Of a stretch of DNA of 64,000 nt, positions 27,363 to 29,337 are shown piece by piece. Position 1 is the first letter of the stretch. The number at the start of each line of letters is the position of its first letter. Made by a program: the position numbers and the translations under genes. The DNA comes from Solemya velum gill symbiont. GTDB lineage: Bacteria; Pseudomonadota; Gammaproteobacteria; Chromatiales; Chromatiaceae. The notes beneath the pieces were generated by a model that ran no database searches, had not been told where the DNA came from, and saw only the letters and a program-made list of their open reading frames with translations. Location: contig NZ_JRAA01000001.1 in assembly GCF_000787395.1 (NCBI RefSeq), forward strand, positions 186,001 through 250,000, written 5' to 3'.

Positions 27363-27452
27363 TGGCGGAGAGAGAGGGATTCGAACCCTCGATACGGGTT
27401 AGCGTATACACACTTTCCAGGCGTGCTCCTTCAGCCACTCGGACATCTCTCC
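27363..27452 (-). tRNA. tRNA-Ser (anticodon GGA)
   Basis: A 90-base class II tRNA with encoded CCA. The acceptor stem GGAGAGA pairs with TCTCTCC, the T-loop GGTTCGAATCC is intact, and there is a long variable arm with a GTATACG/CGTAT stem. The anticodon GGA (27416-27418 on the complement) sits in the loop CTGGAAA, reading UCC and UCU codons. It closely resembles E. coli serW/serX. A -10-like TATAGA lies at 27466-27471, back to back with the 4.5S RNA promoter. Confidence 0.97.
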
Positions 27453-27533: not shown

Positions 27534-27658
27534 TTTATGGTGGTCCGCATGGGTCCCCTCGCAACGATAGGTTGTGAACCCGGTCAGGCCCGGAAGGGAG
27601 CAGCCGCAGCAGCTGACTCGTGTGCCGGGGTGTGGCTTGTGCGGGCCGCCTCCATAAA
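27534..27658 (+). ncRNA. ffs: Signal recognition particle RNA (4.5S RNA)
   Basis: The ends TTTATGG and CCATAAA pair, followed inward by TGGTCCGC / GCGGGCCGCC. The apical domain carries the conserved internal loops for Ffh binding, GTCAGGCCCGGAAGGGAGCA: the GGAA tetraloop closing on CAGG and AGCAG. The mature RNA is probably about 115 bases within these limits. It partners the Ffh protein to target membrane proteins. It stands directly upstream of dnaX, as scr does in Bacillus. Confidence 0.95.
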
Positions 27659-27696: not shown

Positions 27697-29337
27697 ATGT
27701 CATACGAGGTACTTGCCCGAAAATGGCGACCACACGGCTTTGCCGAGCTGGTTGGGCAGGAACATGTTGTGCAGGCTCTTTCCAACGCACTCGATCAGGA
27801 TCGTCTTCATCATGCCTATCTCTTTACCGGTACCCGCGGGGTTGGCAAGACCACCCTGGCACGCATTTTTGCAAAATCACTCAATTGTGAAGAGGGCGTA
27901 AGTTCCACTCCATGTGGTGTTTGTAGTACCTGCCGTGAAGTTGATGAAGGGCGTTTTGTTGATCTGCTCGAGGTCGATGCCGCATCGCGTACGAAGGTCG
28001 AACAGACCCGCGAACTCCTCGAAAATGTTCCCTATGCACCAGCCAAGGGTCGCTACAAGGTGTACCTGATTGACGAGGTACACATGTTCTCAGACAGCAG
28101 TTTTAACGCGCTGCTGAAAACGCTTGAAGAGCCGCCACCCCATGTCAAGTTTCTGCTCGCGACAACCGATCCGCAAAAACTGCCGATGACGGTTCTGTCG
28201 CGTTGCCTGCAGTTTGGCCTCAAGCGCCTGACACTGGAACAGATTGCCGGTCAGTTGCGCCATATTCTGGATGTTGAGAAAGTCGGGCATGACGATACCG
28301 CTGTGACTCTGCTTGCTTACGGCGCTGACGGCAGTATGCGTGATGGCCTCAGCCTGCTTGACCAGGCGATCAATTTCGGTGGTGGTGAGGTTGTCGAGGA
28401 GAAGGTCGCCAGCATGCTGGGCACGGTATCACGTGACTACGTGTTTGGCCTGGTTGAGGCGTTGGTTGCACGTGACGGTAAACTGCTAATGCAGAAAATT
28501 GATGCGCTGGCAGACCGTTCACCCGATTTTCGCAGTGTACTTGATGAGTTGTTGCGCATGCTGCATCGTGTTGCCGTGTTGCAGACTGTGCCTGACCTGA
28601 ATGTTGAGAACGAGGTCGACCATGAACGTTATGCATGGATGGTTGAGACGGTTCCGGCCGACGAGGTGCAGCTCTATTATCAAATCGGTATAACCGGTAA
28701 ACGTGATATGCCGATGGCGCCCGACTTGCGCAGTGGTTTCGAAATGGTGATGTTGCGCATGCTGGCATTTCAGCCTGGTGCTGTGAGTCAGCCAGCTGAA
28801 GCACCACGTCAGGCTCAAAAAAAAAGCCCTGAACCGGTAGCTGCGCCAGCAGCCAGGCAGGCTGAGGCTGCAACAGAAGCCGAGGCAGAAACAAAAAAGA
28901 AAGTGCAGCAGCAAGCAGTCCCCGCAGCGCCTGTTTCACAGGATGCTGAGTTACCCCAGTCAGTCGACTGGAACCAACTACAGAAGGAACTCAAGCTGGG
29001 TGGTATTTCAGGCCAGTTGGCGATGAATTGCGCTTTTGATTCGGTTGATGGCAATCTGTTCAGGCTGGTGTTGCCTGAAGAGCACCAGGCACTGCAATCG
29101 GATATGGCGGTCAAAAGAATGGAAGAGGAGCTGCGCAAGCATTTTGGCTGTGCGGCACTGAAACTTGAAATCGCGCTGGGTAAACCACAGGTTGATACTC
29201 CTGCACAGCGAAAACTGCGCCTGGAGAATCAGCGCCTGGCTGAAGCGAAAGCAGGTATGGTTAACGACCCGTTCGTCAAGGAGTTGCAACAGCAGCTTGG
29301 CGCACGTGTAATCGATGAGACAATCAAGCCTGTATGA
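27697..29337 (+). CDS. dnaX: DNA polymerase III subunits tau and gamma
   Basis: A 546-residue clamp-loader ATPase. Visible are Walker A GTRGVGKT (45-52), a zinc site (CEEG...CGVCSTC), the DEVHMFS Walker B region, sensor segment LLATTDPQKLP and SRCLQF. After domain III (about residue 365) a Gln/Ala/Glu/Pro-rich linker leads to the tau-specific C-terminal part, which contacts polymerase alpha. An A9 run at 28817-28825 could produce a short gamma form (see the separate entry). E. coli tau is longer (643). ybaB and recR follow in the same order as in many bacteria. Confidence 0.97.
   Translation: MSYEVLARKWRPHGFAELVGQEHVVQALSNALDQDRLHHAYLFTGTRGVGKTTLARIFAKSLNCEEGVSSTPCGVCSTCREVDEGRFVDLLEVDAASRTKVEQTRELLENVPYAPAKGRYKVYLIDEVHMFSDSSFNALLKTLEEPPPHVKFLLATTDPQKLPMTVLSRCLQFGLKRLTLEQIAGQLRHILDVEKVGHDDTAVTLLAYGADGSMRDGLSLLDQAINFGGGEVVEEKVASMLGTVSRDYVFGLVEALVARDGKLLMQKIDALADRSPDFRSVLDELLRMLHRVAVLQTVPDLNVENEVDHERYAWMVETVPADEVQLYYQIGITGKRDMPMAPDLRSGFEMVMLRMLAFQPGAVSQPAEAPRQAQKKSPEPVAAPAARQAEAATEAEAETKKKVQQQAVPAAPVSQDAELPQSVDWNQLQKELKLGGISGQLAMNCAFDSVDGNLFRLVLPEEHQALQSDMAVKRMEEELRKHFGCAALKLEIALGKPQVDTPAQRKLRLENQRLAEAKAGMVNDPFVKELQQQLGARVIDETIKPV
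28817..28853 (+). other. Putative slippage site for gamma subunit synthesis in dnaX
   Basis: Nine consecutive A residues span codons 374-377 (CAA AAA AAA AGC). A -1 slip gives AAG CCC TGA, a stop two codons on; a +1 slip gives a stop (TAG at 28838-28840) after four codons. Either would truncate the product at about 378-381 residues, just after domain III, like gamma. A perfect 5-base stem (GCTGC GCCA GCAGC, 28840-28853) lies 14 bases downstream. E. coli uses ribosomal slippage and Thermus transcriptional slippage on A9 for the same end. Confidence 0.7.

Follow-up and report, generated by a model that had tools for sequence, protein, structure and literature searches.

A nine-adenine tract in dnaX of the Solemya velum gill symbiont as a probable transcriptional slippage site for a gamma-like subunit, and its recurrence across Gammaproteobacteria

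Introduction

Does the run of nine adenines (A9) inside dnaX of the Solemya velum gill symbiont serve to make a short, gamma-like clamp-loader subunit beside tau, and if it does, is it the RNA polymerase or the ribosome that slips there? In E. coli, dnaX undergoes a -1 programmed ribosomal frameshift at A_AAA_AAG, assisted by an internal Shine-Dalgarno sequence and a stem-loop, and relatives of E. coli likewise use ribosomal frameshifting; whether gamma is important in bacteria other than these and Thermus is an old dispute.

According to a 2012 review, most other bacteria are without frameshift signatures in dnaX (PMC3290774). For a large fraction of bacterial genomes, selection against A/T runs starts once a run reaches nine (Baranov 2005, PMC1088944), and a comparative test for slippage that gives a truncated product was considered difficult by Baranov et al. 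2005 (PMC1088944). The poly-A frameshifts of Blochmannia dnaX fall 3' of the gamma site and concern a different question (PMC3017870). In the searchable literature, which mostly excludes subscription papers, we came across no paper that gives A9 slippage as the mechanism of gamma formation in Gammaproteobacteria.

Results

The dnaX gene and its A9 tract

The window, i.e. the whole 64-kb stretch of DNA that was analysed, contains a complete dnaX gene, identified by matches to PF13177, PF22608, PF12169, PF12170 and NF005942, which together comprise the AAA+ clamp-loader domains, domain III and tau domain V. A small SRP RNA (4.5S, RF00169) lies immediately 5' of dnaX at 27548-27644, near a tRNA on the strand opposite to dnaX at 27366-27452; ybaB-like and recR-like genes follow downstream. 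The features of the gene are:

27697..29337, + strand: dnaX, tau subunit of DNA polymerase III, 546 aa, 60.5 kDa (NF005942, E 7.7e-230; TIGR02397; Pfam)
28393..28767, + strand: DnaX domain III (DNA_pol3_gamma3), residues 233-357 (PF12169, E 3.5e-21)
28817..28825, + strand: A9 slippery tract, CAA AAA AAA AGC, read from the sequence; an exact A9 also occupies this place in L003/L032, Sedimenticola and others
28818..28824, + strand: in-phase A_AAA_AAA heptamer within A9, a possible ribosomal -1 shift site, read from the sequence and missed by the earlier note on this DNA
28830..28832, + strand: TGA of the -1 frame, 4 nt past the tract, from translation
28838..28840, + strand: TAG of the +1 frame, 12 nt past the tract, from translation
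28966..29325, + strand: tau domain V (alpha-binding), from residue 424 (PF12170, E 2e-14)

The tract runs from position 2 of codon 374 to position 1 of codon 377, 17 codons past domain III, the last domain common to tau and a gamma-like form. The reading frame is open across A9, so that tau (546 aa) is the zero-frame product. Direct reading of the sequence bears out the earlier note, which had A9 straddling codons 374-377 as CAA AAA AAA AGC, with TGA at 28830-28832 as the stop of the -1 frame and TAG at 28838-28840 as that of the +1 frame.

Since domain III ends at residue 357 and domain V begins at 424, a shift in either direction removes domain V. Transcripts with A10 or A7 are predicted to encode 378 or 377 aa, ending ...QKKKP or ...QKKP at the TGA of the -1 frame; those with A8 or A11 are predicted to encode 380 or 381 aa, ending ...KALNR at the TAG of the +1 frame; and A9 or A12 messages are predicted to give full-length tau of 546 or 547 aa. 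The earlier proposal that both shifts truncate the protein after domain III, leaving a gamma-like subunit, thus holds for the predicted products, all of which lack domain V; its figure of roughly 41 kDa is too low, the short forms of 377-381 aa having a computed mass of 42.0-42.5 kDa.

Although this is the sole A9/T9 in the 64-kb window, we do not use its rarity there as standalone evidence: shuffled windows hold a mean of 0.45 A9/T9, and 29/100 hold at least one. In the source genome (2.70 Mb, 10 contigs), A/T runs of at least nine number only about eleven, several of them within genes. Because one of these is an A9 within an intact class I/II aminotransferase ORF (L089, about 1247; C1:316346-316354), an A9 by itself is no proof of use; this ORF could serve as a slippage control from the same genome. 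Elsewhere in the genome, a T10 occupies the extreme 3' end of a 417-aa condensation-domain (NRPS-like) frame (L092, about 1241; C3:731640-731649), and a glycosyltransferase is split into two overlapping frames, with N-terminal GT4-like and C-terminal GT1 domains (L088, 600-1865; C1:283999-285264); the T9 in their overlap could point to phase variation, to slippage, or to a frameshift that arose by mutation or in the assembly. For the dnaX tract, a sequencing or assembly error is unlikely, as the 546-aa frame is intact and the same A9 is found in the other species of the genus.

A9 recurs in dnaX linkers across the class

We compared 253 distinct dnaX linkers, drawn from the window's family (210 genomes searched) and from a class sample of 140 Gammaproteobacteria genomes, nearly all from separate families. 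Sense-strand A-runs in these linkers peak at exactly nine (A7, 10; A8, 7; A9, 24; A10, 4), compared with 4, 3, 2 and 0 in the remainder of the dnaX ORF, and the linker spectrum contains no T-runs above 7. These spectra count related species separately, and the lineage-level counts are safer: A9 or longer is present in 16 of the 118 families with a readable linker, the window's included, or roughly one in seven. As a control, 37,097 nt of the same ORFs beyond 450 nt contain a single run of A9 or longer. Synonymous-codon shuffles, which are conservative because they retain the AAA codons of the tract, yielded an A9 or longer in 7.6 genes (at most 13 over 200 shuffles); in the real sequences the count was 28. 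Lysine codons could be the source of part of the A9 excess in these A-rich linkers.

Across the class, A9 is seen in each codon phase (0, 1 and 2). Within the window's family, an exact A9 or A10 stands just past domain III in the other species of the genus (L003/L032), all seven Sedimenticola of the tree, L061, three species of genus g63 and two of genus g80; in every case the tract, whether in phase 0, 1 or 2, is followed within 3-6 nt by TGA in the -1 frame.

Stops follow the tract in both alternative frames

For stop codons we took one representative per lineage (n=17), with GC-matched positions as the null. A -1 frame stop lies within 30 nt (<=30 nt) in 17/17 lineages (6.5 expected, P<5e-5), a +1 frame stop within the same distance in 14/17 (4.9 expected, P<5e-5), and stops in both frames within 45 nt (<=45 nt) in 15/17 (3.7 expected, P<5e-5). 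Close stops in both frames are a requirement of slippage that yields a variable number of A's. Among members of the window's family the -1 stop keeps its position 3-6 nt past the tract and the +1 stop ranges from 12 to 45 nt; the constancy of the -1 stop suggests that what mainly happens in this family is the gain of a single A (or a ribosomal -1 shift). In the comparative set, chance falls far short of explaining the position, exact length and neighbouring stops of A9.

Conservation and absence of the tract

The nearest named relative is the Solemya elarraichensis gill symbiont (L032, 93%), and the one further species with which the genus is represented in the collection (L003/L032, 94%) has kept A9; synonymous comparison of the Solemya pair has little power (26/92; 29/38 comparable A-ending codons keep A). 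Sedimenticola belongs to the same family, and the linkers of G119 and L050 (S. selenatireducens DSM 17993) are identical. An exact A9 is present in 7/7 Sedimenticola species of the tree, although its codon phase varies between species; as a control, only 2/59 conserved K/E/Q codons outside the tract are A-ended in all seven, and the Lys AAA fraction is 0.35.

The dnaX linker as a whole is poorly conserved. In the sister genus g2, 76-77% identical over the first 368 residues, the position of the tract reads AAG AAG AGG, with no run. The earlier note had looked to loss of the run in close relatives as evidence against its proposal, and here the outcome is divided: g2, which lost the run or never had it, is without it, but the other species of the genus retains it. 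From the run-length mode at nine and the synonymous conservation in Sedimenticola, we regard the length and position of the tract as probably kept under selection, even though g2 has no run. On a tree of 131 DnaX proteins, the deep part of which is weakly supported, A9 versus not-A9 needs at least 15 changes of state; together with its absence from g2, this indicates that gamma made by A9 is dispensable over evolutionary time.

Other arrangements occur nearby. L036, which is near or in the window's family and branches inside it on the tree, and L272, from outside that family, carry an E. coli-type signal although they are not enterobacteria: A_AAA_AAG CCTGA, preceded at 8-10 nt by a strong Shine-Dalgarno-like element. 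In two other Gammaproteobacteria families, L294/L341 (A9) and L329/L347 (A11) have a two-ORF dnaX, in which a zero-frame stop directly past the tract ends gamma and tau lies in another frame.

Candidate stimulatory elements around the tract

Two further features bear on a possible ribosomal event:

28840..28853, + strand: GCTGC/GCAGC hairpin, arms 28840-28844 and 28849-28853, named by the earlier note and present
28893..28899, + strand: second slippery heptamer A_AAA_AAG (ACA AAA AAG AAA), in phase, with a GAGG-like element upstream, missed by the earlier note

The hairpin does begin 14 bases downstream of the tract, as had been pointed out, but the region is no more stable than its dinucleotide shuffles (28826-28890: z = -0.24, 87/200 as stable), and we rejected it as a stimulator. 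The downstream fold across A9 sites has a median z of -0.24; the same crude score gives the real E. coli stem only -0.84. Anti-Shine-Dalgarno energies upstream of A9 sites have a median of -2.5 kcal/mol against a null of -2.95, so that a stimulator of this kind about 10 nt upstream, as in E. coli (-7.4), was not found at A9 sites. The A_AAA_AAG sites have energies of -7.4 (E. coli), -8.3 (L036) and -9.4 kcal/mol (L272) at 8-10 nt, and all three have a stop three nucleotides on. The window's dnaX has no A_AAA_AAG followed by a -1 stop one or two codons on: the A9 tract holds only A_AAA_AAA, and the stop for the A_AAA_AAG at 28893 comes 48 nt later.

Discussion

Transcriptional slippage as the best explanation

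We consider it likely, with a probability of about 0.7, that A9 is a selected, programmed transcriptional slippage site that yields a gamma-like DnaX beside tau. RNA polymerase would realign on the tract and produce dnaX mRNAs with 8, 9, 10, 11 and further numbers of A's; A9 and A12 messages would be translated into full-length tau, and the remaining messages would stop 4 or 12 nt past the tract, giving a gamma-like subunit of 377-381 aa (about 42 kDa) that retains domains I-III and is without the alpha-binding domain V. From these patterns we infer slippage of the polymerase at A9 in vivo, and also accumulation and use of the short protein. The earlier note had likewise favoured transcriptional slippage as in Thermus, a reading that gains support mostly from evidence which the note did not have: the run-length mode of nine, the stops in both frames, the independence of codon phase, the conservation in Sedimenticola and the absence of a Shine-Dalgarno stimulator.

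In the main rival reading, the same 378-aa gamma-like protein would arise from an unaltered mRNA, possibly alongside some transcriptional slippage, if the ribosome shifted to -1 at A_AAA_AAA (28818-28824), read AAG CCC and stopped at the TGA at 28830. The earlier note had argued for the polymerase from the codon phase; the phase it gave, CAA AAA AAA AGC, is right, but the argument is incomplete, because the in-phase A_AAA_AAA permits a ribosomal -1 shift as well. As such a heptamer exists in an A9 of any phase, phase independence alone was rejected as proof of slippage. A ribosomal event would also fit the -1 stop that always falls within 6 nt in the window's family, where the +1 stop lies at 12 to 45 nt, and close relatives of the E. 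coli arrangement do occur in L036 and L272. Run length speaks for the polymerase: in phases 1 and 2 the heptamer needs no more than an A8 or an A7, but nine is the commonest length in every phase. So do the surroundings, since A9 sites have no Shine-Dalgarno stimulator and A_AAA_AAG sites have one, and the downstream structure is no better than in shuffles, by a score that also misses the E. coli stem. The +1-frame stops, too, are unusually close, and in E. coli ribosomes shift far less readily on A_AAA_AAA than on A_AAA_AAG (PMC5009743). We judge ribosomal frameshifting at A9 unlikely on these grounds.

We find it highly improbable that the tract is a homopolymer doing no harm in a Lys/Ala/Pro-rich linker free of constraint, its leaky slippage useless and only tau of importance. 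The ease with which shuffled windows acquire an A9 (29/100), the sister genus without a run and the poor conservation of the linker speak for chance; the mode at exactly nine, the repeated recurrence at the same place, the enrichment of stops in both frames and the synonymous conservation in Sedimenticola speak against it. The second heptamer at 28893-28899 would, as a working site, support an E. coli-type shift to a longer gamma with a 16-residue tail. It has the right phase and sequence and the GAGG-like element upstream (-5.9 kcal/mol), but its -1 stop is 48 nt on, compared with 3-6 nt at the A9 tracts, and the sister species of the genus has an A6 in another phase at this position and no A_AAA_AAG. 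Being unconserved and too distant from its stop, it was rejected as the main site, and we give it hardly any credence.

If transcriptional slippage at the A9 signature does operate, gamma-like clamp loaders would be made in many Gammaproteobacteria families by a mechanism different from that of E. coli, with many gains and losses. From the comparative sequence data, A9 slippage is probably common in Gammaproteobacteria, repeatedly gained and lost beside the E. coli frameshift, and a short DnaX would then be far more widespread than is allowed by the view that gamma is not made in most bacteria other than enterobacteria. One family holds A9, A_AAA_AAG-like and no-signal lineages together, which makes the use of gamma testable by comparison of sister lineages. 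Run length, phase independence and stops in both frames combine into a comparative test for slippage that gives a truncated product.

Comparison with known systems

The window's dnaX resembles that of E. coli in the gene itself and the purpose served, in the Lys-Lys at the site and in the TGA of the -1 frame right after it; it differs in having A9 in place of A6G, no Shine-Dalgarno stimulator and, by our crude score, no significant downstream structure. In two-ORF dnaX genes with poly-A, tau needs a shift, for which slippage has been proposed (Antonov et al. 2013, PMC3711429). These share with the window a poly-A at the border between the common domains and the tau-specific part; in those genes gamma is the zero-frame product and tau is reached by a shift, but the window has tau in the zero frame and does not belong to the two-ORF group.

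The closest likeness of arrangement is to Thermus thermophilus, where gamma arises because transcription slips on an A9 (Larsen et al. 2000, summarised in PMC1088944 and PMC5009743): both have one tau ORF, exactly nine A's, close stops in both other frames and a gamma-like truncation. Thermus belongs to a different phylum, and slippage in the window is a prediction from sequence. The kind of system is thus already known from Thermus; its breadth across the class was unexpected and is the most interesting part.
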